Source: Mycobacterium sp. MS1601 (GTDB taxonomy: Bacteria; Actinomycetota; Actinomycetes; Mycobacteriales; Mycobacteriaceae). From it: a stretch of 64,000 bases of DNA. Each line of letters opens with the position of its first letter. Position 1 is the stretch's first letter. Below the pieces are notes generated by a model that made no database searches, had not been told where the DNA came from, and worked only from the letters and a program-made list of their open reading frames with translations. The DNA is taken from contig NZ_CP019420.1 in NCBI RefSeq assembly GCF_001984215.1, positions 1,674,001 to 1,738,000 on the forward strand. Reading direction: 5' to 3'. Below, piece by piece: positions 19,532 to 59,907 of the stretch. The translations under genes were made by a program, and so were the position numbers.

Positions 19532-19545
19532 CCCGCCCGACTGTG

Positions 19546-19565
19546 AAGATCTGCTCAAGATCTGC
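19546..19565 (+). promoter_or_regulatory. Direct repeat, candidate response-regulator box upstream of the two-component operon
   Basis: AAGATCTGC occurs at 19546-19554 and again at 19557-19565, an exact 9-base repeat with an 11-base period. OmpR-family regulators bind tandem direct repeats spaced one helical turn apart. The pair sits 47 bp upstream of the regulator start, a good place for autoregulation. Binding is inferred. Confidence 0.4.
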
Positions 19566-19611
19566 GCAGGATTGTCCGTCGCGCATCGGCTAGCCGGTGG
19601 CACGGGGCACC

Positions 19612-43610: not shown

Positions 43611-44651
43611 TCACCTCGCCCGGTACTCCGCCACAATCGGCGCCAACTCGTCCGGGGTGCCACCGTGCATGATCACCGCGTCGGCGCCGTAGTCGAATTC
43701 CTTGCGCACCCGGTCCACACACTGACGCGCCGACCCGGTGGCCGACGGCTCCAACCATTCCTCAGGGATCAGGGCGGCGATGTGCTCGATCTGCCCGGCA
43801 CTGGCCTTGTGGTCGATACCGCCGGCAATGGACTGCACCACGGCGTCATCGCGGAAGCGTTGCAGCACAGCGGGATCCCAATTATTGGTACTGACAAGCA
43901 GATCGCCATAACCCTGCAGGTAGGTGGCCAGCCTAGCCACGGTCTTCTTCAGCCGCAGTTCCTCGGGTAGATGGTCGCCGACGGTGGCCAAGCAGGACCA
44001 CACCCGGACCGCGTCGGGGTCGCGGCCGGCCTGCTCGGCGGCCTCCTTCACCGTCTTGACGCTGCGTGCCAAGGTTTCCGGCGTGAAGTAGGTGTGCAGG
44101 ATGACGTCGTCGAAGGCACGGCCGCCCAGCGCCAGGGTCTGCGGCCCAAAGGCTACGACGGCCAAGCGGATGTCCTCGCGGAAGTCGGCATCGAGGAACA
44201 GCACCGGGTACTCGCCGATGGGTCCGTCGTGGTTGAAGATCAGCTCACCGCGCCACAGCCGCCGCATCACGGCGGCGAAGTCCTCCATCTGGGCTGTGGT
44301 CACCGCGGGCACCCCGAAGGCGTTGTACATTGCCGCGATGCCACGGCCGATGCCGAGGGTGAACCGACCGCTGGACAGCCGGTGCATGGTGGTGGCCCAG
44401 GACGCGGTGATCAGCGGGTGGCGGGTGTTGTGATTGGTTGCGGCCGTGGCGATCTGCATGCGGCTGGTCACCGCGCAGGCCGCGCCCACCAACGACGAGG
44501 CCTCTTTGACGTTCCAGCGCTCAGAGATGAAGGCGCTGCCGAACCCCAGCTGCTCACCCCGTCGCGCCTCGTCCATGAGAGACGCGGGCCCTTCGCCCCC
44601 TGCACCGGCAAGTAGGTAGTACCCCAGCTCATCGAGCACCCGATCGGTCAC
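43611..44651 (-). CDS. LLM-class (luciferase-like) F420- or flavin-dependent oxidoreductase
   Basis: This 346-residue TIM-barrel protein has LGFGSAFISERWN, the LGIGRG loop near the cofactor site and VWSCLATVGDH. It resembles the mycobacterial F420-dependent LLM group that includes TIGR03857-type proteins. The GTG at 44651 has AAGGAG seven bases upstream. It is the last gene of the large catabolic cluster but is separated from the DUF993 gene by 138 bp, so it might have its own promoter. It converges with the Dabb gene at a 1-bp gap. Confidence 0.88.
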   Translation of the reverse strand: MTDRVLDELGYYLLAGAGGEGPASLMDEARRGEQLGFGSAFISERWNVKEASSLVGAACAVTSRMQIATAATNHNTRHPLITASWATTMHRLSSGRFTLGIGRGIAAMYNAFGVPAVTTAQMEDFAAVMRRLWRGELIFNHDGPIGEYPVLFLDADFREDIRLAVVAFGPQTLALGGRAFDDVILHTYFTPETLARSVKTVKEAAEQAGRDPDAVRVWSCLATVGDHLPEELRLKKTVARLATYLQGYGDLLVSTNNWDPAVLQRFRDDAVVQSIAGGIDHKASAGQIEHIAALIPEEWLEPSATGSARQCVDRVRKEFDYGADAVIMHGGTPDELAPIVAEYRAR

Positions 44652-44789
44652 ATCCAGACTCCTTGCTTGCAGCCGCAGTTGCAGAGACCTCGCAGTTCCG
44701 CGGTGTGACCACCACTTGACGGCGATGAGTTCCGTTACCTCACGTGCCCGGTCCCCGCCGACAGCGATCACGCCGCGCAGTGAGCATCA

Positions 44790-45950
44790 CTACCCGATCC
44801 CCTGCACAGCAAAATAGGCAGATGCCCGCCGAGCGGCCAGATCGGGGTCGGCGAACAGGCCGATCGACCCAGCGACGCGCACCAGTTCAGCCAGGTGGAG
44901 CAGGCTGCGACCGGTCTCGAAACCACGCAGCATCCGGAAGTGGTCCTGCCCGCCGTCCAGGTAGGTCAGCCACGCGACACCTACCTTGTAGTACTGGGTG
45001 GGCGCGCTGAACACCAGCCGACTCAGTGGCAACGTCGGCTCCAGGATGTCGCGGAACCCGTCGACATCACCGACATCCAGCCGCGCGAAAGCCGCCGACG
45101 CGAACCGCGGCACGGCGGCGAACGCACCCAGTAGGGCATCGCTGTGCCGCGTTCCGTCACCGGCGACCAGGTCGACGTAGTTGAAGTCGTCGCCGGTGAA
45201 CACCCGCGCCGGTGCCGGGATCATCTCGCGCAGCAGCGTTTCCAGCGCCGCGTCCAGGAGTGACACCTTGATGCCGGACACCTTGTCGACATGGGCGCCG
45301 ATGATGTCGACCACGCCGGCCATGGCGGCTTTGGGTTCGTCGTGTCCCCAGTAGCCGGCCAGCGCCGGGTCGAACATGGACCCGAGCCAGTGCAGGATCA
45401 CCGGGCGGGTGGCGTGCTCCAGTACCTCGCCGTACACCCTGGCGTAGTCGTCGGGGCTGCGAGCCACCCGTGCGAGGTGCCGGCTGGCCATCATGACGAC
45501 GGAGCCGCCCGCACCTTCGATATCGCTGATCTGTTCCAGGTAGGCATCACGGATCTCATCCAGACCCGGGCTATCGCTGGATATCTGGTCGGTGGCTACA
45601 CCGACCACCACCTGCCCGCCGCGATCGCGGGCATCTGCCAGCGTACGCAGCGCCAGCTCCCGGGCACCCGCCCAGTCCAGCCCCATTCCGCGCTGTGCGG
45701 TGTCCATGGACTCTGCCACGCCCAATCCCAGCGACCAGAGCCTGCGGCGCAGTTCAACCGTGGCGTCCCAGTCGATCTGGTCCACCCCCGCCACCGCGTC
45801 GCAGGCCCGCAACGGGTCGGCCACCACATGCGCGGCGGCATACACGATCCGACTGCTCGGCGGTGTCGAGGCAACGACCAGGGCAGCAGGCGCGGCCAGC
45901 TGTACCGCAGACAGTGTGCCGTCGGCATCCGGCAGGATCAGTGGTGCCAT
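44790..45950 (-). CDS. DUF993 dihydrodipicolinate-synthase-like aldolase
   Basis: This 386-residue protein matches the DUF993 family, distant relatives of class I aldolases of the DHDPS type. Landmarks are QIDWDATVELRRRLWSLGLG, VVGVATDQIS, WLGSMFDPALAGYWG, the probable Schiff-base segment DKVSGIKVSLLD (Lys) and FTGDDFNYVDL. It probably catalyses a retro-aldol or dehydratase step on the pathway intermediate, cleaving off a short fragment. The start codon shares one base with the preceding SDR stop (TGATG), so it belongs to the operon. Confidence 0.85.
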   Translation of the reverse strand: MAPLILPDADGTLSAVQLAAPAALVVASTPPSSRIVYAAAHVVADPLRACDAVAGVDQIDWDATVELRRRLWSLGLGVAESMDTAQRGMGLDWAGARELALRTLADARDRGGQVVVGVATDQISSDSPGLDEIRDAYLEQISDIEGAGGSVVMMASRHLARVARSPDDYARVYGEVLEHATRPVILHWLGSMFDPALAGYWGHDEPKAAMAGVVDIIGAHVDKVSGIKVSLLDAALETLLREMIPAPARVFTGDDFNYVDLVAGDGTRHSDALLGAFAAVPRFASAAFARLDVGDVDGFRDILEPTLPLSRLVFSAPTQYYKVGVAWLTYLDGGQDHFRMLRGFETGRSLLHLAELVRVAGSIGLFADPDLAARRASAYFAVQGIG

Positions 45951-46672
45951 CAGCGGGCATCCAATCCGCCGTCGGCGAGCACCGTCTGGCCGGTGATGAA
46001 ACTGGCGCCGTCGCTCACCAGGAAGCACAGCAGTGCGGCGATCTCCTGCGGCTGGGCAGCGCGACCCAGCAGGTTGGTGGCCACCTCCTTGCGCACCTCG
46101 TCCGACCACGACTCGGACATGTCGGTCAACACGAACCCGGGGGCCACGGAGTTGACGGTGATGGACGGAGCCAGGGCCTTGGCGAAGGACACGGTGACGT
46201 TCTCCAACGCGGCCTTGGCCGCGGAGTACCCCGTGACCTCCGGGCTGGCCAGGTTGTCCCGGCCCCGGATCGACGACACAGTGACAATGCGGCCGCCACC
46301 GTTGGCCTGCATGGACGGAGCCAACGCCCTGATGAAGTTCACCGGGCCCAGCACGTTGGAGCGGTACTCCGCGATCCAGTCCTCGGTGGAACCAGTCAGC
46401 GCATCGGTAGCCAGGACGCTGCCCAGCGTGCAGATCAGGGCGTCGATGGGCCCCACCTCGGCCAGCGCGGTGTCGACCATCTGCTGCACCGCGGCGGCGT
46501 CCTGCCCGTCGCAGTGATAGGCGGGAGCGTCAAGCTCTGCCGACAGTTGCTTCAAGGCAACGGAATCACTGCGACCATGCAGGATCACCCGCGAGCCACG
46601 GGCCACTTCCTGGCGCGCTGCGGCTGCGCCGATACCGCGGGAGGACCCGGCGATGAGCACTGTTCTTGTCAT
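45950..46672 (-). CDS. Short-chain dehydrogenase/reductase
   Basis: This 240-residue SDR has the variant cofactor motif IAGSSRGIGAA, a catalytic Ser in IVTVSSIRG, GYSAAKAAL (Tyr and Lys) and the C-terminal GQTVLADGG. In this operon context (enoyl-CoA hydratase on one side, aldolase-like DUF993 on the other) it could oxidise the 3-hydroxyacyl intermediate to the 3-keto form. It overlaps the hydratase gene by ATGA. Confidence 0.9.
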   Translation of the reverse strand: MTRTVLIAGSSRGIGAAAARQEVARGSRVILHGRSDSVALKQLSAELDAPAYHCDGQDAAAVQQMVDTALAEVGPIDALICTLGSVLATDALTGSTEDWIAEYRSNVLGPVNFIRALAPSMQANGGGRIVTVSSIRGRDNLASPEVTGYSAAKAALENVTVSFAKALAPSITVNSVAPGFVLTDMSESWSDEVRKEVATNLLGRAAQPQEIAALLCFLVSDGASFITGQTVLADGGLDAR

Positions 46673-47403
46673 GATGTCGTCCTCCCGGAACGGGTCTGAC
46701 CGGTGGCCATGAGGTAGGCGCCGGCAAGGGAATCGATGAGGTTGGTTGAGTCGGCGGGCCCGGAGGCGGCCAGCACTCGCTTGAGAATCGACTGGGCGCC
46801 GGGCGTGGTGAGCAGCAGGCTCTGCACCAACGCGTCAGCCGCCCGCTCCGCATCGGCGTCCACGATGTCAACGATGCCGAGCCGGAACGCCTCGGCGGCC
46901 TCAATCGGTTGGCCCGTCAGGGCCAGTCGCCTGGCCGCGGAGGTACCGGCGATCTCGCTGATGCGGGCCAACCCGGCCCACCCCGGGGTGGTTCCCAGCG
47001 TCGCTTCCGGAAGGCCCAGCTTCGCATCGTCGGCGGCCACCCGGAAATCACAGTGCATCGCCAGTTCCAGGCCCCCGCCGTAGGCGCCGCCGGCCAGCAC
47101 CGCAATGGTGGTTTGCGGTAGCTCGGACAGCGCGCGAAAAACCTGCTGCCCCAGTCGCGTCCAGCGCCGAAGAACCAGTTCAGCTGTCACGCCGGAAAAT
47201 TCGGTGGTATCCGCGCCGGCGCAGAACACCGGACCTGCGCCGGCGAGCAGCACCACCCGGGCCTCTGAGACGGCGACCTCGTCCAGGCGGCCGCGCAGCT
47301 CGGTGATCAAATGTGTGCTCAGCGCATTGCGTTTGCGCGGACGGTCCAGCTCCACTCGCGCCACGAGGCCCGAAAACTCCAGCCGCACAACCCCGTCGGT
47401 CAC
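46669..47403 (-). CDS. Enoyl-CoA hydratase/isomerase family protein
   Basis: This crotonase of about 244 residues has CAGADTTEF (oxyanion region), GGAYGGGLELAMHCDFRVA and LGLPEATLGTTPG with a catalytic-position Glu at about 133. The other Glu position is E113 in GGLELA. Both active-site glutamates therefore appear present. I chose GTG 47403 since it overlaps the aldehyde dehydrogenase stop (GTGA), the usual junction here; ATG 47430 would overlap by 31 bp. It should hydrate an enoyl-CoA intermediate of the pathway. Confidence 0.9.
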   Translation of the reverse strand: MTDGVVRLEFSGLVARVELDRPRKRNALSTHLITELRGRLDEVAVSEARVVLLAGAGPVFCAGADTTEFSGVTAELVLRRWTRLGQQVFRALSELPQTTIAVLAGGAYGGGLELAMHCDFRVAADDAKLGLPEATLGTTPGWAGLARISEIAGTSAARRLALTGQPIEAAEAFRLGIVDIVDADAERAADALVQSLLLTTPGAQSILKRVLAASGPADSTNLIDSLAGAYLMATGQTRSGRTTS

Positions 47404-48842
47404 AACAGGTTCCGCTGCAGGCTCGTCCATCGACGCTCGGTCAGTAGATCGATATTGGCCCGGCCGCCCAGATCGTCGCCCAGGCCCGAGGCTGCAGTGC
47501 CTCCGAACGGCACCTGCGACTCATGCATGGCGGTGCCGTCGTTGACGTGCACCATACCGGAGCGCACCTGGTCGGCCACGCTCCACGCCTTGTCGAGATC
47601 GCGGCTGAACACCGACGTGGACAGTCCGAAGCGGGTGCCGTTGACGATCTTGAGAGCTTCGTCCACGGAGTCCACCACCGTCACCGGAGCGATGGGCGCG
47701 AACACCTCCTCGTCGTGCAAGACCATGCCGGGCCGCACCTGGTCCACCACGGTTGGGCGCAGGAACACCCCGTCGGCGGTGCCACCCTCGACCACCCTGG
47801 CCCCGAGGTCGACGCTGCTGGTCACCATGGCCAGTGCCTTGTCCACTTGGTGCTGCGACACCATGGGACCCAGGTCCACCTCAGCGGTGTACGGATCGCC
47901 GACGGTCAGCCGGGCTGCCTCGGCCGACAGCGCCGCAACGTAATCCGCGGCGACATCGGCGAGCACGACATGCCGGCCGGTGGCAATGCACACCTGCCCC
48001 TGATGCCCGAATGACGACCCGGCACCGCACCGCGCGGCCAGTTCCACGTCGGCATCTGCGAGCACGATGCTGGCATTGTTGCCGCCGAGTTCGAGCGCCA
48101 CCCGCTTGAGCAGTGGCGCGGCGGCCACGTTGATACGACGGCCGGTGTCCTCGGACCCGGTGAAGTGGATCATGTCGACCTGAGGATGGTTCACCAAGCC
48201 GGCTCCGGCCGGTCCGCCGGTGAGCACCTGGACCACTCCTGCGGGCAGCCCGGCTTCGGCGAGTACCTCGGCCAACATCAGTCCGCCGGTGAACGGGGTC
48301 TCCGGGGCGGGCTTGAGCACTACCGTATTGCCCAGCGCGATCGCCGGCGCCAGCACCCGCATGGCGATGTGCACCGGGGCGTTCCACGCCGTGATGAGCC
48401 CGACCACGCCGACGGGACGGCGCTCGACGATGTTGACCCGGCCGCGCTGACCGGACGGAATGATCTCACCCAGCGGAGTCGTGGCCAGTTCTGCGGCCTG
48501 GAAGAACTCGATGACACTGGCGCCGATCTCCCCTTCTGCCTTGGGGCCGACGGCGCCGCCCTCGCGGATCAGGACGTCTTTGAAGCGGCCCGCTTCGCGC
48601 TCCAGGATCGCCCCGCCGCGGCGAAGGACCGCCGCCCTTTCGGTGGCCGGGGTGGCGTACCACTCCCGTTGGGCAGCAACAGCTCCCGATACCGCACGGT
48701 TGACGTCGGCGTCGGTGGCGATGACGGACTCGCCGATCACTGCGCCGCTGGCCTTGTCGGTGACGGGCAGGACGTCGCCATCGGAACCGACGAACTCGCC
48801 ATCGATGAACAGGGTCCGCCGGAGGGCGTCGTTGAGTGTCAT
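47400..48842 (-). CDS. NAD(P)-dependent aldehyde dehydrogenase
   Basis: This 480-residue enzyme has all ALDH residues: N154 in TAWNAP, K177 in LKPAPETP, E251 in ALELGGNN and nucleophile C285 in GQVCIATGR. The pattern is closest to benzaldehyde/vanillin-type dehydrogenases. It would oxidise the aldehyde produced by the operon's alcohol dehydrogenase to an acid. AGGAG lies seven bases before the ATG. It is 15 bp downstream of the acyl-CoA dehydrogenase gene. Confidence 0.95.
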   Translation of the reverse strand: MTLNDALRRTLFIDGEFVGSDGDVLPVTDKASGAVIGESVIATDADVNRAVSGAVAAQREWYATPATERAAVLRRGGAILEREAGRFKDVLIREGGAVGPKAEGEIGASVIEFFQAAELATTPLGEIIPSGQRGRVNIVERRPVGVVGLITAWNAPVHIAMRVLAPAIALGNTVVLKPAPETPFTGGLMLAEVLAEAGLPAGVVQVLTGGPAGAGLVNHPQVDMIHFTGSEDTGRRINVAAAPLLKRVALELGGNNASIVLADADVELAARCGAGSSFGHQGQVCIATGRHVVLADVAADYVAALSAEAARLTVGDPYTAEVDLGPMVSQHQVDKALAMVTSSVDLGARVVEGGTADGVFLRPTVVDQVRPGMVLHDEEVFAPIAPVTVVDSVDEALKIVNGTRFGLSTSVFSRDLDKAWSVADQVRSGMVHVNDGTAMHESQVPFGGTAASGLGDDLGGRANIDLLTERRWTSLQRNLL

Positions 48843-48857
48843 GGGTTCTCCTAGGGG

Positions 48858-50030
48858 TCAGGACCAGTCGGCGCGCACGGCGGCCCGGCCGAGCATCAGG
48901 GCATGGATCTCGCTGGTGCCGTCGATGATCTGGGTGATCTTCGCGTCGCGCATCAATCGTTGCACCGGGTAATGCAGATGCACTCCGTAACCCCCGAGCA
49001 GTTGCACGGCCTCGACGGTGTGACGCATGGCGGCGTCGGTGGCGAACATCTTGGCTGCCGAGATCAGGTGGGAGTCGCCACCGCCGCCGGAGGCATAGCT
49101 GGTGACGCCGTCGCGCAGTAGCCCACGGGCGGCCAGGTAGTCAGCGTGCAACCTGCCCAGCTTCTCCTGCACGATCTGCAGATCGGCCAGCGACTTGCCG
49201 AAGGCCTGCCGGTCTCGCACGTATGTTCCGCATTCCCGCAGTGCTGCCCGCATGAAGCCCACTGCGTAACAGCCGGCGTCGAGGCGCGCCAGATTGAGCC
49301 CTTCGAGCATGCCGCGGAAGCCGTCGGTCTGTAGCCGCCAGTCCGACGGCACCCGACAGTTGTCGAAATGAACGTTGGCCATGGGCATTCCGCGAAACCC
49401 GGACATCGGCTCGTCTTTGCCGACGGTGACCCCGGGGGTGTCCAGCGGCACCACGAACGCGGCGGTGGGGGCCTCTCGGTCCGCTGAGCCCAGTTTGGTC
49501 AGCACGATGCAGAAATGTGCGGCCGGGCTCTGGGTGATCCACGCCTTTTCCCCCGTGATGCTGATCGTTCCGTCGCTGTGTTCGACAGCCACGGTGCGTC
49601 CGGCCCGGATGTCGGTGCCGGAGTGTGGTTCGCTGAGTGCGAAGCTGCCGCGCAGGGAACCGTCGATCAGACCGGGCAGCCAGCGGTCTCGGATATCGGC
49701 CGGGGCATAGGCGGCCAGTAGGTAACCGTGCAGCCGGGCGATCGAGATGCCCAAGGCCACCGCGCCGGAGTACGACGCCACCAGTTCGGTGGTCTCGTGT
49801 GCCAGGGCGAACATCATCGGGTCGATGCTGCCGTCGTCACCGAAGATCAGGCCCTGCAATCCGAGATCGGCGGCATCGGCCAGCAGTTCCGGGAAGAACT
49901 TACCGGACAGATCGATGTCTTGGGCGCGCGGACCCACCCGCGTGGCGCAGAAGTCCTGCACCACGCCGAGGAACTGCTCAGCGTCGGCGTCCAGGGAGTA
50001 AGGCCCCCCTCGTGAGATCAAAGAGGTCAC
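48858..50030 (-). CDS. Acyl-CoA dehydrogenase
   Basis: This 390-residue flavoenzyme has the FAD/substrate loops FALSEPHSGTDI and ITGEKAWITQ, RQAFGKSLADLQIVQEKL, GGYGVHLHYPVQRLMRD and the C-terminal IIDGTSEIHALMLGR. It is most like short/medium-chain acyl-CoA dehydrogenases that make the alpha,beta double bond. It starts at a GTG overlapping the stop of the alcohol dehydrogenase gene (GTGA). Chain length or substrate cannot be read from the sequence. Confidence 0.93.
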   Translation of the reverse strand: MTSLISRGGPYSLDADAEQFLGVVQDFCATRVGPRAQDIDLSGKFFPELLADAADLGLQGLIFGDDGSIDPMMFALAHETTELVASYSGAVALGISIARLHGYLLAAYAPADIRDRWLPGLIDGSLRGSFALSEPHSGTDIRAGRTVAVEHSDGTISITGEKAWITQSPAAHFCIVLTKLGSADREAPTAAFVVPLDTPGVTVGKDEPMSGFRGMPMANVHFDNCRVPSDWRLQTDGFRGMLEGLNLARLDAGCYAVGFMRAALRECGTYVRDRQAFGKSLADLQIVQEKLGRLHADYLAARGLLRDGVTSYASGGGGDSHLISAAKMFATDAAMRHTVEAVQLLGGYGVHLHYPVQRLMRDAKITQIIDGTSEIHALMLGRAAVRADWS

Positions 50031-51160
50031 GACGGGACTCCGTTGTCGGCCCACTCGTAGCGGATCACACCGCGCAGATTCTTGCCGGCCAGCAGGTCGT
50101 CATAAGCGTCGTTGATCTGTTCGATGCGGTACTCCTTGGTGACCAGGCCGTCGAGATTGATCTGTCCGGAATCCCACAGCTTCAACATCTTCGGGATGTC
50201 GTTGCGGGGGTTGCAGCCGCCGTTGAGAGAGCCGGTGAGCGTCTTCTGCCACAAGACGAAGTCCGACGGATTGATCGGGATGCTCGGCTGGTCGTGCCGC
50301 GTCAGGCCGACGACGGCGACGGTGCCGCTCTTACGGACCGACCGCACGGCTTGTCCGATGGTCTCGGCGGTTGCGATGGCCTCGAAGGCCTTGTCGACGC
50401 CGACTCCCCAGGTGAGTTCGGTAGCGAACTCCACCGGATCGGTGACGTTCGGGTTGACGGTGTGGGTGGCGCCGAACAGTTTGGCCTGCTCCAGTTTCCA
50501 GTCGTTGGTGTCGCAGGCGATGATGCGCTTGGCGCCGGCGATCTTGGCGCCCTGCACGATGTTCATCCCGATGCCGCCAACGCCGAAGACCATCACGTCG
50601 TCGCCGAACTCGACACCTCCGCGGTAGATCGCGGTGCCGACACCGGTGGTGACGCCGCAGGCCACCAGGCAGGCCCGCTCGAGGCGATAGTGTTTGTCCA
50701 CCTTCACCACGGACTGGCCGGGCACCACGGTCCACTCACTGAACGTGGACACCAGGCAGAACTGTCCTAGTTCAACTCCGGCGTCGTCACGAAACCGGAA
50801 GGTCCCGTCGATCTGCGGCCCCTGCACCGTATAGGCGCCCAGATCGCACAGGTTGGTCTGGCCGTCGGTGCACCAGCGGCAGGTACCGCAGGACGGCAGG
50901 TAGGACATCACGACGTGATCGCCGGGTACGACGTGGGTGACGTTGGCACCCACCTGTTCCACCACACCCGCGCCCTCGTGGCCGAAGATCATGGGCAGCG
51001 CGGCGATCTGGTCACCCGTGACGTGGTGCATGTCGGAATGACAGACCCCGGAGGCCACCAGGTGCACCAACACCTCATTTGCGCCGGGCTCGTCGAGTTC
51101 GACTTCTTTGACGTCGAAGCGAGTGTTCAATCCATAGGTGACTGCGGCTCGGGTACGCAT
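50027..51160 (-). CDS. NDMA-dependent (mycofactocin-associated) zinc alcohol dehydrogenase
   Basis: This 377-residue medium-chain dehydrogenase has catalytic zinc ligands (C40 in SGVCHSDMH, H61-E62 in GHEGAG), a structural zinc set (C91, C94, C97, C105) and the Rossmann motif GVGGIGMN. Full-length similarity is to the TIGR03989 group, where NAD(P) is held permanently and mycofactocin acts as electron acceptor (NDMA in vitro). It would oxidise an alcohol to an aldehyde at the top of the pathway. AGGAG precedes the ATG; the CoA-transferase gene ends 1 bp upstream. Confidence 0.93.
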   Translation of the reverse strand: MRTRAAVTYGLNTRFDVKEVELDEPGANEVLVHLVASGVCHSDMHHVTGDQIAALPMIFGHEGAGVVEQVGANVTHVVPGDHVVMSYLPSCGTCRWCTDGQTNLCDLGAYTVQGPQIDGTFRFRDDAGVELGQFCLVSTFSEWTVVPGQSVVKVDKHYRLERACLVACGVTTGVGTAIYRGGVEFGDDVMVFGVGGIGMNIVQGAKIAGAKRIIACDTNDWKLEQAKLFGATHTVNPNVTDPVEFATELTWGVGVDKAFEAIATAETIGQAVRSVRKSGTVAVVGLTRHDQPSIPINPSDFVLWQKTLTGSLNGGCNPRNDIPKMLKLWDSGQINLDGLVTKEYRIEQINDAYDDLLAGKNLRGVIRYEWADNGVPS

Positions 51161-51161
51161 G

Positions 51162-52742
51162 TCAATTCTCCTCTTGGGTCAGGGTTTCGGGGGTTCGACG
51201 GCGGGACATGAAGAGCGACGCCGACATGGTCGTGATGTCGTCGGCGAGCTTGGGCCGGAAGTCCATCAGAGCGATCACCTGCTCGGCGGTCCAGCCGGGC
51301 GCCACCTCTGTCAGGACGGGGCCGTCGTCGCCGAGGGCGAACACCGCGCGTTCGGTGACGTAGATGACCTCCTGGCCACGTTCCCGGGCGAGATGGGCGT
51401 TGAACGTGACCTGGCGTACCTTGTCGATGAACTTGCGATGCCTGCCTTCCGCGGTCACCTTCGGGTGTCCCTCGGTGAGGTCGATGCGCAGTCCGCCCGC
51501 GGTGAGCGTCCCGCAGAACACCACCTTCTTGGCCGCCTGCGAGATGTTGATGAATCCGCCCGCACCGAAGATACGACCGTCGACCAGAGATGAGTTCACG
51601 TTGCCCTCTTTGTCGACCTCGGCGAAGCCCAGACATGCCACATCCAGGCCGCCGCCGTCATAGAAGTCGAACTGCGAGGCGTGTTCGATGACGGCTTCTG
51701 GGTTCCAAGAGACCCCGAAGATGACTCCCCGTTCGGGGACGCCGCCCACCATGCCCTGTTCGACGGTCAGAGTGATCTCTTTGAGCCGATCCTCTTCCAG
51801 TGCGGCAGTGGCCACCCCGTCGGCCATCCCGACCCCGAGGTTCACCACCGAGGCCGGCTTGATCTCGTCGAGTGCCCTGCGCGCCACCACTTTCCGTTCC
51901 GACAGCGGCATCGCAGGCGATCGCCCGAACGGCACGTACACCTCGCCGGAGAAGGCGGGGTTGTATTCGTTGATCGCGGTCTGCCACTGGTCTTCCTGCA
52001 CCACCACGATATCGACCAGATGACCTGGCACCACCACACTCTTGGGATTCAGCGTGTGTACGGCAGCGACGCGCTTCACCTGGGCGATCACCAGTCCGCC
52101 ACTGTTGCGTGCCGCAGTGGCCGCAGCCAACACGCCCAGCTTGGCTGTCTCATGTTCCAGCGTCAGGTTGCCGTGCTCGTCGGCAGTGGTCCCGCGGATG
52201 AACGCGACGTCGAAGGAGGGGCTGGGATAGAACAGGTACTCCTCGCCTTTGATATCCATAACCTCGACGAGCTCGGTGGTGGTGGCGCTGTTGAGCCGGC
52301 CGCCGCCCTGGCGGGGGTCACAGAACGTGCCCAGCCCCACCTTCGTCACCAGGCCTGGTCGCTTGGCGGCACTTTCGCGCAGCAGCTGCGCCAGCACACC
52401 CTGTGGCAAGTTGTAGGCCTCGATGTCCCCGTCATGGGCCATCTTCGACAGCGTGGGAGTCATGGCCCAGTGCCCGGCGATGGCACTGCGCAACAACCCC
52501 GGCAATGCCAGCACGTCCATACCGGAACCGTTGCGGTCGCCCACGCCGCTGCAGAAGTACGCGGCCAACTCGATCGGCCCGCCGGTGCGGCGGTACCGGT
52601 CAGCCAGGGCGTTGAGCAGACCCGATGGCTCGATGACGCCACCACCGGAAGCCTCGACGAGCAGCCGTGCCCGGTCCGGAATCCGTTCCACGGCATCCTG
52701 TGCCGACAGGAACTCGGGTGCAGTCAGTTGACTGATCCTCAT
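51162..52742 (-). CDS. Family I CoA-transferase (fused alpha-beta, acetate CoA-transferase YdiF-like)
   Basis: This 526-residue protein contains both halves of a 3-oxoacid CoA-transferase in one chain. VEASGGGVIEPSGLL and YFCSGVGDRNGSG belong to the first half, and the catalytic-Glu motif LTVEQGMVGG (about 327) to the second. It would activate a carboxylic acid by CoA transfer from acetyl-, succinyl- or a related CoA. The start overlaps the stop of the upstream SDR gene (ATGA). Confidence 0.93.
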   Translation of the reverse strand: MRISQLTAPEFLSAQDAVERIPDRARLLVEASGGGVIEPSGLLNALADRYRRTGGPIELAAYFCSGVGDRNGSGMDVLALPGLLRSAIAGHWAMTPTLSKMAHDGDIEAYNLPQGVLAQLLRESAAKRPGLVTKVGLGTFCDPRQGGGRLNSATTTELVEVMDIKGEEYLFYPSPSFDVAFIRGTTADEHGNLTLEHETAKLGVLAAATAARNSGGLVIAQVKRVAAVHTLNPKSVVVPGHLVDIVVVQEDQWQTAINEYNPAFSGEVYVPFGRSPAMPLSERKVVARRALDEIKPASVVNLGVGMADGVATAALEEDRLKEITLTVEQGMVGGVPERGVIFGVSWNPEAVIEHASQFDFYDGGGLDVACLGFAEVDKEGNVNSSLVDGRIFGAGGFINISQAAKKVVFCGTLTAGGLRIDLTEGHPKVTAEGRHRKFIDKVRQVTFNAHLARERGQEVIYVTERAVFALGDDGPVLTEVAPGWTAEQVIALMDFRPKLADDITTMSASLFMSRRRTPETLTQEEN

Positions 52743-53449
52743 GGCATCGCTCCTCCCCCATTGACATTGATGGTCTGGCCGGTGACAAAGCTGGCTTCCC
52801 CGCCCACCAGCCAGGCCACCGCGGTGGCCACTTCGTCCGGTGTGCCGAACCGGCCCATCACCAACGCCCTGGTCTTCTGATCCACCCATTCCGGGGTGGC
52901 GTGCACCGCGGTCATCGGCGTCTCGATCGGGCCGGGCGCCACACAGTTCACCCGAACCGCCGGCCCCAGCTCCCTGGCCAGAGCGCGGGTCAGCCCGCCC
53001 ACCCCCGCTTTGGAGGCGGTGTAGGCGGCACAGTTGATGCCACCGACGTATCCGATCTGGCTGCCGATGGTGACGACGGCGCCACCGGTCTTCGCCAACT
53101 CCTCGGCGGCCGCTTTGACACAGAGGAAGGTGCCGGTGAGGTTGACGGCGATGGTCTGGTTCCAGGTGGCCAGATCCAACTCGGGAAGGAACGTCTGTTC
53201 CATCACCCCGGCCAGGGTGACCAGCGCGTCGATCCGGCCGAACTCCTGCACCGCCGCTGACATCAGCTGAGCGACATCAGTTTCGGAGGTGACATCGGCA
53301 GGCACCGTCAACGCCTCGGCAACATCAGGTGCCGCACTGCCCGGGTGATACCCCAGCACCAGCGAGAAGCCGTCCTTGGCCAGCCGCTGGGCCACGGCGC
53401 GACCCAGGCCACCGTCAGCGCCGGTGAGCACCGCGACTCTGTCAGTCAT
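52739..53449 (-). CDS. Short-chain dehydrogenase/reductase
   Basis: This 236-residue SDR has LTGADGGLGRAVAQRL (cofactor), a catalytic Ser in VVTIGSQIG, AYTASKAGVGG (Tyr and Lys) and GQTINVNGGG at the end. It could act on a hydroxy intermediate or the imported compound. It overlaps the ATPase gene by 8 bp and the CoA-transferase gene by ATGA, so it is inside the operon between transport and catabolic modules. Confidence 0.9.
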   Translation of the reverse strand: MTDRVAVLTGADGGLGRAVAQRLAKDGFSLVLGYHPGSAAPDVAEALTVPADVTSETDVAQLMSAAVQEFGRIDALVTLAGVMEQTFLPELDLATWNQTIAVNLTGTFLCVKAAAEELAKTGGAVVTIGSQIGYVGGINCAAYTASKAGVGGLTRALARELGPAVRVNCVAPGPIETPMTAVHATPEWVDQKTRALVMGRFGTPDEVATAVAWLVGGEASFVTGQTINVNGGGAMP

Positions 53450-54962
53450 CGGCCACCGCCCCTTGGAACGCCAGCTTCATGACGGCTTCTTCGGAAGCCT
53501 CGGCACGGCTGAGTTCGCCGACGGTGCGGCGGGCCCGCATCACCACGATACGGTCGGAGGCGCCGAGGAGTTCCGGCAGCACCGACGACACCATGATGAT
53601 GGCCATGCCCTCGTCGGCCAGGCTCCGGATCAGCCGGTGCACTTCAGCTTTGGCGCCCACGTCGATCCCGCGGGTGGGCTCGTCGAGCAGCAGCACCTGC
53701 GGTCTGGTGGCCAGCACCTTGGCAAGTGCCACCTTCTGCTGGTTGCCGCCGGACAGCGCCCCCACGGGCATGGCGGGGCTGGCGGCTTTGATGCGCAGTT
53801 CCTTGAAGAACCGGTCGACGATCTTGGCGCCCTTGCGCCGGCGCAGCCATGGCCCGGTGCTCATGGCGGCCAGGCTGGCCAGTTCGATGTTGGTGCTGAT
53901 GGGCAGGCCCAGGTGCAGGCCCTGGTTCTTGCGATCCTCGGGCACCAGTGCGATACCGGTGTCCAAGGCCGCGCCGGGATGACTCGGGCGGTGCGGTTTG
54001 CCATGAAACGACATGGTGCCGGCCGTAATTCGGGTGGCCCCGTAGATCGCGGCCAGCACCTCGGTGCGGCCACTGCCCACCAGGCCCCCGATACCGAGGA
54101 TCTCGCCGGGGCTGACCTTGAGTGACGCCGACACCACCCCGGGCGCGCTGATACGGTCCACGGACAACACCGGCGCTTGGCGATCGGCCGTCTCCTCGTG
54201 CCCGTGGTACACGGATTCGAGATTGCGTCCGATCATGTGCCTGATCAGCGAGTCCTCGGTGAACTCGGCAGCCGGGGCGGTGATGATGTGTCTACCGTCC
54301 CGCAGCACGCTCACAGTGTCGGCGTACTCCAGCACTTCCGGCAGGTCGTGGCTGATCAGCACCACCGTGGCGCCGTCGTCCCGCAGCTCCCGCAGCAGAC
54401 CCAGCAGCCGCACCGAATCATCGTGCGGCAGTGACGATGTGGGCTCGTCGAAGAACACCACCTTCACGTCCTGGGCCAGGATGCGGGCGATCTCGATGAG
54501 CTGTTGCTCAGCTATCGACAACTCGCCGGCCTGGCGGCGCGGGTCGATATCCAACCCCACCCGCTTGAGGTGTTCACGGGTCTGCTGGGCCAGGGCGCGC
54601 CGATCGATCACACCCCAGCGCGACGGCTCGGCATTGACCAGGACGTTCTCCGCGACGGAGATGGATCCGATCACCGACAGCTCCTGGTGCACGATGCCGA
54701 TGCCAAGCGCGGAGGCCTGGGTGGGGTTCTTCGGGTTGATCGGCTGCCCGTCGAGGGTGATGGTGCCGGAGTCAGCCGTCTCGAACCCTGAAAGAATCTT
54801 CGACAACGTGGACTTGCCGGCGCCGTTCTCGCCGACCAGCGCGTGGATCTTGCCCGGCTCCAACGTCACCGAGACGTCTTCGAGCGCAGCGATCCCCGAG
54901 TAGTGCTTGGAGATCCCGTTTGCCCGCACCAGACCTGTGCGGGCGGGGGCGGCCACACTCAT
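53442..54962 (-). CDS. Sugar-type (RbsA-like) ABC transporter ATPase
   Basis: This 506-residue ATPase has two nucleotide-binding domains in tandem. NBD1 has Walker A GENGAGKST (44-52), signature LSIAEQQLIE and Walker B VVFFDEPTS. NBD2 has the degenerate Walker A GLVGSGRTE typical of RbsA proteins, signature LSGGNQQK and VLLLDEPTRG. It energises the carbohydrate-uptake-transporter-2 type importer with the adjacent permease and lipoprotein. It overlaps the permease gene by ATGA. Confidence 0.95.
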   Translation of the reverse strand: MSVAAPARTGLVRANGISKHYSGIAALEDVSVTLEPGKIHALVGENGAGKSTLSKILSGFETADSGTITLDGQPINPKNPTQASALGIGIVHQELSVIGSISVAENVLVNAEPSRWGVIDRRALAQQTREHLKRVGLDIDPRRQAGELSIAEQQLIEIARILAQDVKVVFFDEPTSSLPHDDSVRLLGLLRELRDDGATVVLISHDLPEVLEYADTVSVLRDGRHIITAPAAEFTEDSLIRHMIGRNLESVYHGHEETADRQAPVLSVDRISAPGVVSASLKVSPGEILGIGGLVGSGRTEVLAAIYGATRITAGTMSFHGKPHRPSHPGAALDTGIALVPEDRKNQGLHLGLPISTNIELASLAAMSTGPWLRRRKGAKIVDRFFKELRIKAASPAMPVGALSGGNQQKVALAKVLATRPQVLLLDEPTRGIDVGAKAEVHRLIRSLADEGMAIIMVSSVLPELLGASDRIVVMRARRTVGELSRAEASEEAVMKLAFQGAVADD

Positions 54963-55978
54963 TCGCCCGGCTCCCCTCGGGTGACGCGGTCGAGCACCAC
55001 CGCGGCCACCACCACGGCACCGGTGACGATCTGCTGCCAGTAGAACGGCACGTTCATCAGTGTCAGCCCGTTACCCAGCACGGCGATCACCAACGCGCCC
55101 AGGAATGTGCCGGCCAGCCTGCCGCGCCCGCCGAACAGGCTGGTACCGCCCACCACCACGGCGGCGATGACGTCCAGCTCGAATCCCACCGCACCGGCGG
55201 GCTGGCCCGAGGACAGTTTGGCGGTCAGGATCACCGACGCGATCCCCGCGCACAGACCGGCAAAGGTGAAGGCGAACAACAACACCCGGTTCACCCGGAT
55301 GCCGGACAGACGCGCCGCTTCGCGGTTGCCGCCCACCGCGTAGATACGGCGCCCGATCTTGAGCCGGTGCAGGATCACGTAACCCACGGCGAATGTCACT
55401 GCCATGATGATCACGGGGATGGGCACCGGCCCCACCTTGCCGACACCGATCTGGTTGAAAGTGCTGTTGCCGATGGAGATCGGGTAGCTGTCGGTGACCA
55501 GCAGGGCGATACCGCGCAGGGCCGTGAGTGTCGCCAGCGTCGCGATGAACGCAGGCACCCGGCACAACGTGATCAGCACCCCGTTGAGGAACCCGCACGC
55601 GGTGCCGACCACCAGGCTGAGCAACACCGCCACCACCGCCGACGCTCCCGTCGAGAGGATCGCGTGCTGCAGGTACAGCGCCGCGATACTGCCGGTGAGA
55701 GCCACCACGGAGCCGACCGATAGATCGATGCCCGCCACCAGGATCACCACGGTGGCGCCTACTGCGGCGATCGCCGTGATCGACACCTGCTGAAGTACGT
55801 TGGTGAGGTTGGCACCGCTGGTGAAGTTGGGCGCGCTGACCGCGAACACCGCGGCCAGTAAGACCAGCGCAACAACCGGACCCAACTGAGCGAGCTTGCG
55901 GAGGTTGGGTGCGCCCATCCCTTTACCCTTGGGCTCCAAGGCATCCGGTGGACGAGGTGGTGCCGAGGTTGTGGTCAT
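54959..55978 (-). CDS. Sugar-type (RbsC-like) ABC transporter permease
   Basis: This 339-residue membrane protein has about eight to ten transmembrane helices, with VILVAGIDLSVGSVVALTGSIAA, a GLLNG-like segment (CGFLNGVLIT) and AVYVGG-like VGGNREAARLSGIRV, all typical of the BPD_transp_2 family. GGAGC is found just before the ATG. It forms the pore of a ribose-type importer whose substrate is not known; the rest of the operon suggests an alcohol or acid rather than a simple sugar. Confidence 0.95.
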   Translation of the reverse strand: MTTTSAPPRPPDALEPKGKGMGAPNLRKLAQLGPVVALVLLAAVFAVSAPNFTSGANLTNVLQQVSITAIAAVGATVVILVAGIDLSVGSVVALTGSIAALYLQHAILSTGASAVVAVLLSLVVGTACGFLNGVLITLCRVPAFIATLATLTALRGIALLVTDSYPISIGNSTFNQIGVGKVGPVPIPVIIMAVTFAVGYVILHRLKIGRRIYAVGGNREAARLSGIRVNRVLLFAFTFAGLCAGIASVILTAKLSSGQPAGAVGFELDVIAAVVVGGTSLFGGRGRLAGTFLGALVIAVLGNGLTLMNVPFYWQQIVTGAVVVAAVVLDRVTRGEPGE

Positions 55979-56005
55979 CAGAGCTCCGTCGTTTAAAGAG
56001 ATCGG

Positions 56006-57124
56006 TCAGAAGGCCGGCTGAGCGCCGGAGGCGATGGTTTCCTTGGTCACCAGGTCCTCGTCGAGAACGCGGTACTCCGGCACCGGCTTGCCGCGCAGAT
56101 AGTCGACGATCTCCTCGACGACAATCCCGGCGGTGGGCTTGTGGATCACGGTGGCCAATGCGTCACCGGCCTGGATGGCGGCAAACATGTCGGTCTGACC
56201 GTCCAGACCCACCACGTCGACACCCTCGCGTCCGCTGGAGTTCAGTGCGGCGATACCACCAAGGGCGGCTTCGTCATTGGCGCCGAACAGCAGGTCGATG
56301 TCGGTGTTGGCGGCCAGCATGTTCTGTGCGGCCTTCTCGGAGTCGCCGCGGCGGTACTGGCCCGGCTGATTGGCCACGATGTTGAAGTTGCAAGAGCGCA
56401 GCAGTGGCAACATGAACGAGTTCACCCGGGCATCGCTGGATTGATCACCCGGGATGCCGGAGATGATCGCGACGTTGATGTCTTCCTGCCCCTTGTAGTG
56501 CTCCACCACCCACTCACCGAGCTGCTGGCCCTCGTTGGAGTAGGGCGCAAGCACCTGGGACACCGGGTCGACGCCCAGCATGCCCTTCTGGGAGAAGAAG
56601 TACGGAATCTGCGCTGCCTCCGCCTGTTTGAGCACTGCGTCGAGTCCCTGGGTGGTTGCGGGCATCATCATCAGCGCATCGGTGCCCACGGCGATGGCGG
56701 TCTGGATGTCGTTGAACTGCTGATTCACATCGTCGTTGGCGCTGACGACGTTGATCTCGGCGCCGAGCTTGGCGGCGGTTTCCTCCGCGAGCTGCTTCTG
56801 CTTGACCAGGAACGGATGACTCAAGCCCTCCACCGAGAAGGTGATCTTGATGGGGTCGCCTTCGGGGATCGGGTTGGGGTTGGTGCGCTCACCCTTGCCC
56901 GATTCCGCCGCGGCGATACCGTACAGGTTCTTGCCGAGATCGGCTTGCAGCTGGGCGATTTGGTCGCGGTTCTCGGCGCAGCCGCCGTCGTCGATCTCGA
57001 CGTTCGAGGCCGGCGCCGCCGTGTCGGACGGGTCGGCGTTGTTGTTCACACTCGAACTACATGCCGTCATTGCCAGCGCGGTCGTGAGGCAGACGGCGGC
57101 AGGCAGGATGGTGCGGATCTTCAT
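56006..57124 (-). CDS. Sugar-type ABC transporter substrate-binding lipoprotein (RbsB/Peripla_BP_4)
   Basis: This 372-residue lipoprotein has the lipobox MTAC with Cys22. The core resembles ribose-binding proteins: KITFSVEGLSHPFLVKQKQLAEE, the DDVNQQFNDIQTAIAVGTDALMM ligand hinge and LLFGANDEAALGGIAAL. Cysteines in GGCAENRD and RSCNFN may form a disulfide, and an extra segment precedes the fold. It would capture the pathway substrate outside the membrane. The start overlaps the MaoC gene stop (ATGA), and the permease is 27 bp downstream. Confidence 0.93.
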   Translation of the reverse strand: MKIRTILPAAVCLTTALAMTACSSSVNNNADPSDTAAPASNVEIDDGGCAENRDQIAQLQADLGKNLYGIAAAESGKGERTNPNPIPEGDPIKITFSVEGLSHPFLVKQKQLAEETAAKLGAEINVVSANDDVNQQFNDIQTAIAVGTDALMMMPATTQGLDAVLKQAEAAQIPYFFSQKGMLGVDPVSQVLAPYSNEGQQLGEWVVEHYKGQEDINVAIISGIPGDQSSDARVNSFMLPLLRSCNFNIVANQPGQYRRGDSEKAAQNMLAANTDIDLLFGANDEAALGGIAALNSSGREGVDVVGLDGQTDMFAAIQAGDALATVIHKPTAGIVVEEIVDYLRGKPVPEYRVLDEDLVTKETIASGAQPAF

Positions 57125-57555
57125 TTCTCTCCTTTGGGAAACGCGACGACTGCGGACCCGCTGATCAACTGCTTCCGAGTGGTGTCGTCGACGACTGTGA
57201 TGGCGAACATGGCCCGGTGGGCCACCGGATCGAGCTGCGCGCACACGGCGTGCGCGGTGATGGCGGCACCTTCGAAGGCCGGTGCCAGGAGGTCGAATTG
57301 GTAACTCGTGGACACGCCGCCGGGGGCGACGAGCTTGGTCAGGGCGGTCTGGACGTAGCCGGCGACGAGCATGCCGTGGGCGACCGGGTGGCCGAAACGC
57401 GTGTTGGCCGCGTACTCGGCGTCTTCGTGGATGGGGTTGTGGTCCCCGGACAGCTGGGCGTAGGCGGTGATGATGTCGGCAGAGACGACAGCGGAGTGCT
57501 CGGCGCTGATACCGATCTCCATATCGTGGAAGGCTTTGATGGTCTCCGGTGTCAC
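57121..57555 (-). CDS. MaoC-like (R)-specific hydratase
   Basis: This 144-residue hotdog-fold protein has the hydratase motif YAQLSGDHNPIHEDAEYA (D38, H43) followed by FGHPVAHGML. It should hydrate an enoyl-CoA to the (R)-3-hydroxyacyl-CoA or catalyse a related step. The GTG start overlaps the iclR stop (GTGA); its stop overlaps the lipoprotein start (ATGA). Its place between regulator and transporter, with a second hydratase further down, suggests a branched or two-stage pathway. Confidence 0.9.
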   Translation of the reverse strand: MTPETIKAFHDMEIGISAEHSAVVSADIITAYAQLSGDHNPIHEDAEYAANTRFGHPVAHGMLVAGYVQTALTKLVAPGGVSTSYQFDLLAPAFEGAAITAHAVCAQLDPVAHRAMFAITVVDDTTRKQLISGSAVVAFPKGEK

Positions 57556-58361
57556 TGGGCAGACCGCTCTGCAGCTGCCCGGGGGTCTTCGTCTACCGGC
57601 TTGAAGCGGCGCAGCAGCTCGGCGCTGATAGCTTCGGCGGTCTCGCAGACCAGGTCGGCGAACTTGCCCCGCAGGTCCTCTTCGGAGAATCGGAAGATCG
57701 GCCCGCCGACACACACCGAGGCCACCACATTGCCCGAGGAATCGAGTACCGGCGCCGCGATGGAGCGCACGCCGAGCTCACGTTCCTCGAGGTTGAGCGC
57801 GTAGCCGTCGCGCCGGATGTGGGACATGGCTTCGTGCAGTTCGGCCGCGGAGGTGATGGTGGACGGGGTGTAGCGGGGCAGCTCCAGCTGGTCGATGATC
57901 CGCTCGCCGACACCGGGCGGCAGGAACGCCAGGATGACCTTGCCCTGGCTGGTGGCATGCAGGGGAATCTGCTGTCCGACCTCGCCATACATCTGCACGG
58001 AGTGCGAGGACGTCATGACCACCAGGTAGGTCAGCTGCAGCCCTTCGCGGACCGCCAGGAAGACGGTTTCGGTGGAGCGGTCTCGCAACTGCGCGAGCAG
58101 CGGCCGGCCGATCTCCTCGAGGGTGGCGTGGTCCACGCGGTCGCCCACCAGCACCCGCATCTGCGGGCCGGGGACATACTTGCCCTCTTCGTTCTGGACG
58201 GCGAACCCCCGGTCGCACAGCACGCGCAGCAGCCGGTGAGCCGTCGGGGCTGTCAGGTTTGTTGCTTTTGCAACTTCGCCCGCGGTCGAGCCCGGGTTGA
58301 GCGAGACTTCCGTGAGGATGTCGAGGACCCGGTACGCGCTCTGCGCTCCCGCGATCTCCAT
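57552..58361 (-). CDS. IclR-family transcriptional regulator
   Basis: This 269-residue regulator has an N-terminal winged helix (YRVLDILTEVSLNPGSTAGEVAKATNLTAPTAHRLLRVL) and a C-terminal GAF-like ligand domain with LHATSQGKVILAFLPPG, GYALNLEERELGVRSIAAPV and VCVGGPIFRF. It is the first gene of the operon and probably controls it. Three copies of a TCCAYAATGTGGA-like palindrome lie at and upstream of its start, one of them overlapping the ATG, as expected for autoregulation. The ligand is likely a pathway intermediate. Confidence 0.94.
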   Translation of the reverse strand: MEIAGAQSAYRVLDILTEVSLNPGSTAGEVAKATNLTAPTAHRLLRVLCDRGFAVQNEEGKYVPGPQMRVLVGDRVDHATLEEIGRPLLAQLRDRSTETVFLAVREGLQLTYLVVMTSSHSVQMYGEVGQQIPLHATSQGKVILAFLPPGVGERIIDQLELPRYTPSTITSAAELHEAMSHIRRDGYALNLEERELGVRSIAAPVLDSSGNVVASVCVGGPIFRFSEEDLRGKFADLVCETAEAISAELLRRFKPVDEDPRAAAERSAQ

Positions 58362-58369
58362 AATGTGGT
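58357..58369. promoter_or_regulatory. Candidate IclR operator 1 (overlaps iclR start)
   Basis: TCCATAATGTGGT, a near-perfect palindrome whose CAT is the iclR start codon on the opposite strand. It shares the core CCAYAATGTGG with operators 2 and 3. The 273-bp gap between iclR and the next gene (58362-58634) holds only this set of sites as recognisable content. Confidence 0.55.
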
Positions 58370-58376
58370 CTCCATA

Positions 58377-58389
58377 TCCATATTGTGGA
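58377..58389. promoter_or_regulatory. Candidate IclR operator 2
   Basis: TCCATATTGTGGA, 20 bases (about two helical turns) from operator 1. Both arms match TCCA/TGGA. Confidence 0.55.
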
Positions 58390-58432
58390 TGTGAGCTAGA
58401 CCATAGGCGTATGCCCGTGCGGCGTCAAGCAC

Positions 58433-58445
58433 TCCACAATGTGGA
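58433..58445. promoter_or_regulatory. Candidate IclR operator 3
   Basis: TCCACAATGTGGA, the best palindrome of the three, 56 bases beyond operator 2. Upstream copies of this kind often let a regulator dimer pair loop or cooperate. Confidence 0.55.
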
Positions 58446-58634
58446 GAAGCGGCAGCGGCGGGTGCGCAGGTCTAAGCCGAGGATTGGCCGGAGTCACCGC
58501 ACACATGTGCACTGCATGCGAAAGACGTTCGCGGCCAATGCGACTGTCTGCGAACGATCCTCACCCGGTCGGGAGCGAGCCTTACGGCTGCGCTGTTGAC
58601 CGGCGATGACGGCGGGGTTTGCCGACGAGGCTTC

Positions 58635-59828: not shown

Positions 59829-59907
59829 GGCCTCGTACGAACCGACATCCGAGACCACGAGTGCGAGGACGACGTTGCGACGATACGTCGGCTTCGGCGC
59901 GACGCGT

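Follow-up and report, generated by a model that had tools for sequence, protein, structure and literature searches.

The closest described relatives of the system considered here are the oxidative pathways for deoxyribonate in Pseudomonas simiae and Klebsiella michiganensis (PMC6365646). In these, an acid is converted to a 3-oxo acid or a 3-oxoacyl-CoA, which is then cut. The window analyzed here (the whole stretch of 64,000 nucleotides at positions 1,674,001 to 1,738,000 of contig NZ_CP019420.1, from Mycobacterium sp. MS1601) holds a cluster that may follow a similar logic. It is a unit of thirteen genes on the minus strand (44790-58361), running from a gene for an IclR-family regulator to a gene for a protein of the family DUF993, with its own promoter-like sequence at 58400-58428. 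The more interesting result, however, is not the operon itself. It is a new link, across one whole clade of DUF993 proteins, between DUF993 and a CoA-transferase, at places where no thiolase lies nearby.

The DUF993 family is large, with at least 8000 relatives, and no function published for it (PF06187; solved structure 4DNH) was found in the literature searched, which left subscription papers mostly outside. Within its tree, a distinct clade of 23 rows (support 100/99) holds the window protein together with proteins from Rhodococcus, from other genera of the family, and from locus L046. In 21 of these 23 rows, all but a 3.4-kb contig and L153, a CoA-transferase gene lies near DUF993. This is true of only 2 of the 34 other rows, those of S. 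meliloti and Rhizobium daejeonense. Because the CoA-transferase label requires four to five changes on the DUF993 tree (bootstrap range), the data suggest more than one origin of the link.

Thiolase was sought by tblastn with a single query (E 1e-5), which may miss remote members of the superfamily; the query's own locus served as positive control. None turned up in the whole window, and of 25 other loci 24 had none either. The sole thiolase-bearing locus of the 26 is that of R. daejeonense, where the gene stands beside other 3-oxoacid CoA-transferase genes.

These counts come, of course, from a sample. DUF993 is matched in 27 of 396 genomes of the phylum, and 20 of the 26 genomes other than this one were retrieved; five of the 146 plasmid records with a match were opened, and the alphaproteobacterial neighbourhoods read are a minority of those present. 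Across the neighbourhoods read in the phylum, the common arrangement has a LacI regulator, a Gfo/Idh dehydrogenase, DUF993, and a TIM-barrel isomerase, with a glycerate kinase in some. The host genome has a second DUF993 of its own (G000:C1:2392917-2394056, locus L037), 48-49% identical, in the canonical LacI, Gfo/Idh, DUF993, isomerase set; by eye, it adjoins genes that resemble those of an ABC importer.

In the window, the minus strand has fourteen open reading frames, close to the coordinates where the sequence-only reading had placed a fourteen-gene cluster. With the most plausible starts, the twelve junctions from IclR to DUF993 measure -4, -4, +27, -4, -8, -4, +1, -4, +15, -4, -4, and -1 bp, and the gap from DUF993 to the fourteenth gene measures +138 bp. 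The tight junctions and the conservation described below uphold thirteen of the fourteen genes as one cluster; the fourteenth, encoding a luciferase-like monooxygenase (LLM), is set off by its gap and is mostly unlinked in relatives. The family names given to the genes in that reading agree with matches to NCBIfam (run on all 14 proteins) and Pfam (run on 7 of the 14). Among the NCBIfam matches listed, two exceed their curated cut-offs, those of the alcohol dehydrogenase (TIGR03989) and the LLM protein (TIGR03857). In order of transcription, the features are these, with SDR standing for short-chain dehydrogenase/reductase and NDMA for N,N-dimethyl-4-nitrosoaniline:

58433..58445, minus: IclR-type palindrome TCCACATTGTGGA, upstream of the -35 element (pattern scan)
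58400..58428, minus: promoter-like sequence, TTGACG (58423-58428), 17 bp, TATGGT (58400-58405); one in 58200-58700, shuffle mean 0.0
58377..58389, minus: IclR-type palindrome TCCACAATATGGA, between the -10 element and the start codon (pattern scan)
58357..58369, minus: second IclR-type palindrome ACCACATTATGGA, one mismatch, overlapping the IclR start codon, 20 bp from TCCACAATATGGA
57552..58361, minus: IclR-family regulator (PF01614, PF09339)
57121..57555, minus: MaoC, (R)-specific enoyl-CoA hydratase-like, with SGDHNPIH motif (PF01575; two of three matched solved chains are (R)-specific enoyl-CoA hydratases)
56006..57124, minus: CUT2-type substrate-binding protein (PF13407; RbsB model E 2.3e-32, 112.5 bits, cut-off 337; 11 positions checked are invariant in 10 copies)
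54959..55978, minus: CUT2 permease (NCBIfam ribose permease model E 5.7e-86, under its cut-off)
53442..54962, minus: CUT2 double ATPase (NCBIfam; GENGAGKST and LSGGNQQ kept)
52739..53449, minus: SDR oxidoreductase 1, YTASK (NCBIfam and motif)
51162..52742, minus: fused family I CoA-transferase, YdiF/FadX type, VEQGMVGG motif (PF01144; YdiF 2ahu E 2.1e-143)
50027..51160, minus: NDMA-dependent (mycofactocin-type) alcohol dehydrogenase (TIGR03989, 473.8 bits, cut-off 440)
48858..50030, minus: acyl-CoA dehydrogenase, IDGTSEI (PF00441, PF02770, PF02771)
47400..48842, minus: aldehyde dehydrogenase with its Glu and Cys motifs (NCBIfam and motifs)
46669..47403, minus: enoyl-CoA hydratase (crotonase) with both Glu motifs (NCBIfam and motifs)
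45950..46672, minus: SDR oxidoreductase 2, YSAAK (NCBIfam and motif)
44790..45950, minus: DUF993 protein with a class I aldolase-type fold; barrel strand 6 carries K228, strand 5 carries H187 (PF06187 E 3.3e-164)
43611..44651, minus: LLM F420-dependent oxidoreductase, a neighbour outside the unit (TIGR03857, 489.5 bits, cut-off 218.4)

Synteny, to which the sequence-only reading had looked for a check, bears the thirteen-gene unit out. The thirteen-gene order is found in seven genomes: that of the window, those with loci L055, L057, L058, and L059, G083 (L033), and G1088 (L168/L169). When named genomes were scanned for the binding protein, eight loci matched. In five of these (L055-L059), the run from IclR to SDR2 stands in window order; in L060 (R. 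wratislaviensis) and L061 (a metagenome-assembled genome), both Rhodococcus, the same run has MaoC shifted ahead of IclR; in L062, the run is cut short. Read further downstream, four of these five loci (L055, L057, L058, L059) have DUF993 immediately after SDR2. In the fifth, L056, the contig ends past SDR2, and a DUF993 with 72% identity opens a separate 3.4-kb contig of the same genome. With the window included, DUF993 directly follows SDR2 in all seven mycobacterial-type copies that could be read through that point.

Between the window and G083, the ratio of nonsynonymous to synonymous substitution (dN/dS), computed on the best-matching stretch only, is 0.03-0.25 for the thirteen genes, the fastest evolving of which are crotonase and MaoC. 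The matched stretches have no internal stop in the four genomes compared. These values, as read from sequence, indicate purifying selection on all thirteen genes; taken with the recurring order, they mean that the cluster is not there by chance. The key residues are kept in nine orthologs (for DUF993, in the three copies that reach it), with MaoC varying beside the Asp and His of its motif (SDDRNPIH in L060, for example). In G1088, SDR2 matches in two frames (L168:11157-11875), as a frameshift or an assembly error would give.

The cluster is narrowly distributed. Of 396 genomes from the genus, nine match DUF993 at E <=1e-150; one of the nine (G911) has another architecture. Plasmid carriage was sought as well: the binding protein has no plasmid match at 1e-40, and matches to the CoA-transferase are below 60% identity in all 237 plasmid records. 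Four neighbourhoods of the latter were opened; one was unannotated, and two of the other three lay beside polyhydroxyalkanoate genes. Foreign composition as a sign of recent transfer proved uninformative, the G+C of the cluster (66.4%) being close to that of its flanks (67.4 and 65.7%). As to sampling, 11 of 13 places with 49-54% identity were retrieved. The handle pairs G304-G309 and G1137, G041, G1097, G1037, G1042, and G140 are taken, from their identical coordinates, to be the same genomes; one scan covered 12 other genomes, 11 of them retrieved there and the twelfth (G140) taken as G309. In one neighbourhood comparison, genes were labelled by their best match in a small reference set.

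The palindromes upstream of the unit recur in relatives. Under a degenerate pattern, the tandem pair at the start of IclR is present in all eight ortholog upstream regions scanned, with a spacing of 20 bp in six and 19 bp in two from Rhodococcus. A similar promoter pair is present in six of the eight, and was not found in the two Rhodococcus regions. The palindrome upstream of the -35 element is also in G083, and is imperfect in G1088. With one mismatch allowed, TCCACANTRTGGA gives six rows at four places in the window, three upstream of IclR and one inside MaoC; the expectation is 0.25 rows, and six was reached by 1 of 100 shuffles. The place inside MaoC, near its start (window:57518-57530), may be chance or an internal operator. 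Exact TCCACAWTRTGGA stands at just three places in the 6.8-Mb genome, two upstream of IclR and one elsewhere (L183), at the 5' end of another gene that by eye resembles those of the IclR family; cross-talk of IclR paralogues is possible. The cluster's own IclR protein is predicted to bind the upstream palindromes.

What, then, might the DUF993 protein do? Its structure model (predicted local distance difference test score, pLDDT, 91.5) matches by structure alignment a (beta/alpha)8 barrel of the dihydrodipicolinate synthase (DHDPS) type. Lysine 228 lies in model strand 224-230, counted by position only as barrel strand 6, which is the Schiff-base lysine position. It is invariant in alignments A2 and A3, and pairs, with a weak hhalign score, with the lysine of four DHDPS-family proteins from the same genome. 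H187 falls, again by weak hhalign, on the tyrosine position of that family, and the alignment stops short of the GxxGE region; we take the DHDPS/N-acetylneuraminate lyase superfamily to carry its catalytic tyrosine on strand 5 and a carboxylate-binding GxxGE motif. DUF993 thus shares with that superfamily the barrel and the position of the strand-6 lysine, but differs in its low identity (11-16%), its extra segments, and a histidine that the weak hhalign match sets against the tyrosine. On the model, DUF993 folds like a DHDPS and has a lysine at the position of the catalytic one.

The importer has the full CUT2 composition: binding protein, permease, and fused double ATPase. Among solved chains, those closest to the binding protein bind sugars or ribose (2ioy E 5.6e-34). 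Eleven positions of RbsB are taken here to be its ribose contacts. In the alignment, seven of these are changed (S9E, N13H, F16L, D89Q, R90K, F164Y, Q235H; F16 pairs with L106) and four are kept (F15, R141, N190, D215; R141 pairs with R233). Ten of the eleven, all but F16L, are identical in 10 of 10 copies. Ribose import is disfavoured by the changed positions, and the ligand is likely to be a distinct one.

The genome holds the mycofactocin maturase MftC, the one mft gene scored (658.5 bits, above cut-off), as would suit the alcohol dehydrogenase. The CoA-transferase is by its sequence a family I enzyme of the YdiF type; VEQGMVGG, presumably the motif with the catalytic glutamate of that family, is kept in nine orthologs, with V replaced by I in four of these.

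From these parts, a route can be proposed, which we favour tentatively and at somewhat less than an even chance: an IclR-controlled operon for the import of an alcohol, its oxidation, its passage through CoA esters, and the cutting of the 3-oxo product by DUF993. Here, the CUT2 importer would take up a small primary alcohol, at least partly hydroxylated, or a polyol-like compound. The mycofactocin-type alcohol dehydrogenase and the aldehyde dehydrogenase would convert it via the aldehyde to a carboxylic acid, and the YdiF-type CoA-transferase would form the CoA ester of that acid. The acyl-CoA dehydrogenase, crotonase and/or MaoC hydratase, and an SDR could then deliver a 3-oxoacyl-CoA. Because the cluster has no thiolase, the CoA-transferase would probably pass the CoA from this to the next molecule of substrate acid, and DUF993 would cleave the 3-oxo acid so freed. 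Because the cluster also has no glycerate kinase, the product presumably differs from that of glycerate-type routes or is handled elsewhere. The earlier suggestion of a polyol-like or branched hydroxy compound degraded via CoA esters is partly supported; the LLM protein as a member of the pathway is not.

The same logic may be extended from the operon to the clade. In this extension, one clade of DUF993 would be a substitute for thiolase, a lysine-dependent TIM-barrel lyase or hydrolase acting on 3-oxo acids delivered by a CoA-transferase, and the recycling of CoA would couple the activation of the acid to the carbon-carbon cut, with no need for free CoA or ATP; the operon would be the mycofactocin-linked version for polyol-like alcohols. 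This is a doubtful generalization, to be held as a possibility. Were it true, it would add a new way to cut carbon-carbon bonds in the catabolism of short acids, and a new class of substrate for mycofactocin-dependent dehydrogenases. The clade-wide link offers a concrete, testable class of reaction for a large family.

Several observations weigh against the proposed route. Outside the clade, most of the neighbourhoods read have the Gfo/Idh-DUF993-sugar isomerase set without a CoA-transferase; therefore, the reaction of DUF993 need not involve a CoA route. The hhalign link of DUF993 to dihydrodipicolinate synthases has a probability of 4%, weak alone. These genomes are large, and a thiolase encoded at another locus may serve the pathway. 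The importer is sugar-like, and yet no sugar kinase or isomerase was recognized in the cluster by the NCBIfam and Pfam matches. The two Rhodococcus clusters lack DUF993 in its place. In both of these, the crotonase is in pieces or in different frames (L060:13718-14184 and 19510-19758; L061:19646-20357), as is SDR1 in L060; these fragments are either broken genes or assembly errors.

Those Rhodococcus clusters without DUF993 fit more easily an ordinary operon for a short-chain diol or alcohol, in which plain beta-oxidation is completed by a thiolase from elsewhere and DUF993, as a side enzyme, handles a by-product. The alcohol and aldehyde dehydrogenases, CoA-transferase, acyl-CoA dehydrogenase, hydratase, and SDR would suffice for this. 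It is harder to see why a side enzyme should follow SDR2 in every mycobacterial-type copy read that far, under purifying selection, or why the CoA-transferase linkage should recur across its clade. A sugar-type importer is also unusual for a simple diol. We regard this explanation as unlikely. An improbable, but sharper, form of the favoured route brings it near deoxyribonate catabolism: the substrate would be a deoxy-sugar alcohol or acid, like a 2-deoxy- or 2,3-dideoxy-pentitol or -pentonate, to be cut to a C2 unit and a glycerate- or lactate-like acid. Several relatives do have a glycerate kinase beside DUF993 and the CoA-transferase, and the Klebsiella route for deoxyribonate is proposed to use CoA activation, dehydrogenation, thiolysis, a CoA-transferase, and glycerate kinase (PMC6365646). 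The thirteen-gene cluster, however, has no glycerate kinase, and a 3-hydroxy acid such as deoxyribonate needs no acyl-CoA dehydrogenase.

The canonical neighbours of DUF993 (a Gfo/Idh dehydrogenase, a TIM-barrel isomerase, and in some loci glycerate kinase) would, together with the dihydrodipicolinate synthase-like fold, suit an aldolase that forms pyruvate or hydroxypyruvate from a sugar acid, while the CoA enzymes would deal with the remaining half of a composite substrate. In the cluster itself, however, a sugar-acid dehydrogenase, an isomerase, and a glycerate kinase were not recognized, and this explanation seems quite improbable. A fourteen-gene pathway that includes the LLM F420 enzyme is hardly credible. 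The LLM gene does adjoin the cluster directly in the window genome (G000), and in G083 with one gene between, the only 2 such cases of 10 genomes; but beyond its 138-bp gap, its ortholog lies elsewhere in six (G1097, G1088, G1037, G1042, G041, and G911, of which the last has no such cluster) and gave no match at E 1e-120 in two (G1137, G140). Five of the seven cluster-bearing genomes that have LLM thus keep it elsewhere. In G041, acyl-CoA dehydrogenase, LLM, esterase, TetR, SDR, and permease genes stand in window order with no cluster there, differing in two regulator-like genes between the first two and in the gene that follows LLM. Gap, unlinked orthologs, and G041 order are the grounds for rejecting the fourteen-gene extent. 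Because G041 has this flanking order without the cluster, and G083 keeps the acyl-CoA dehydrogenase gene upstream of it, the cluster was most likely inserted between that gene (58635-59858 in the window) and LLM. The one gene between DUF993 and LLM in G083 (L033:15115-17109) encodes 664 amino acids and is malQ-like by eye.

The literature searched, with few subscription papers in it, yielded no account of the gene set, which agrees with the earlier remark that no named pathway is known to combine exactly these parts, without proving novelty; the part of a mycofactocin paper that was available (PMC7176365) has no mention of the cluster. Comparison must therefore be made part by part. With E. 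coli RbsABC, the cluster shares the CUT2 subunit types, but the binding protein has its changed contacts and no ribokinase is recognized among the thirteen genes. From a standard beta-oxidation cluster, it differs in the thiolase that the tblastn query did not find. Glycerate kinase, beta-keto acid cleavage enzyme, and thiolase are likewise not among the matches listed for the fourteen proteins.

Clusters of the same general design exist. The plasmid cluster of Rhodococcus sp. USK13 (with a near-copy, L084, in R. wratislaviensis) has a DUF993 of the same clade, about 70% identical, together with a sugar ABC importer, aldehyde dehydrogenase, GMC oxidoreductase, CoA-transferase, and SDR. Its alcohol dehydrogenase matches TIGR03989 above cut-off (504.6 bits), and its acyl-CoA dehydrogenase has the same best NCBIfam model as that of the window. 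The matched proteins other than DUF993 are, however, only about 26-44% identical, and USK13 also has Gfo/Idh, isomerase, LacI, and glycerate kinase genes. The pSymA cluster of S. meliloti (L135), a bacterium much studied in the laboratory, for which the literature searched gave no functional assignment, shares the CoA-transferase, crotonase, acyl-CoA dehydrogenase, SDR, and DUF993; there, glycerate kinase, aldo/keto reductases, and electron-transfer flavoprotein genes are nearby, and DUF993 is about 50% identical and lies outside the CoA-transferase clade.

This returns the comparison to the deoxyribonate pathways. A CoA-transferase is found in Klebsiella as well as in the window, and the glycerate kinase of those pathways recurs in several relatives within the DUF993 clade. 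The window cluster, in contrast, has DUF993 in place of a thiolase, and adds steps for an alcohol dehydrogenase and an acyl-CoA dehydrogenase.

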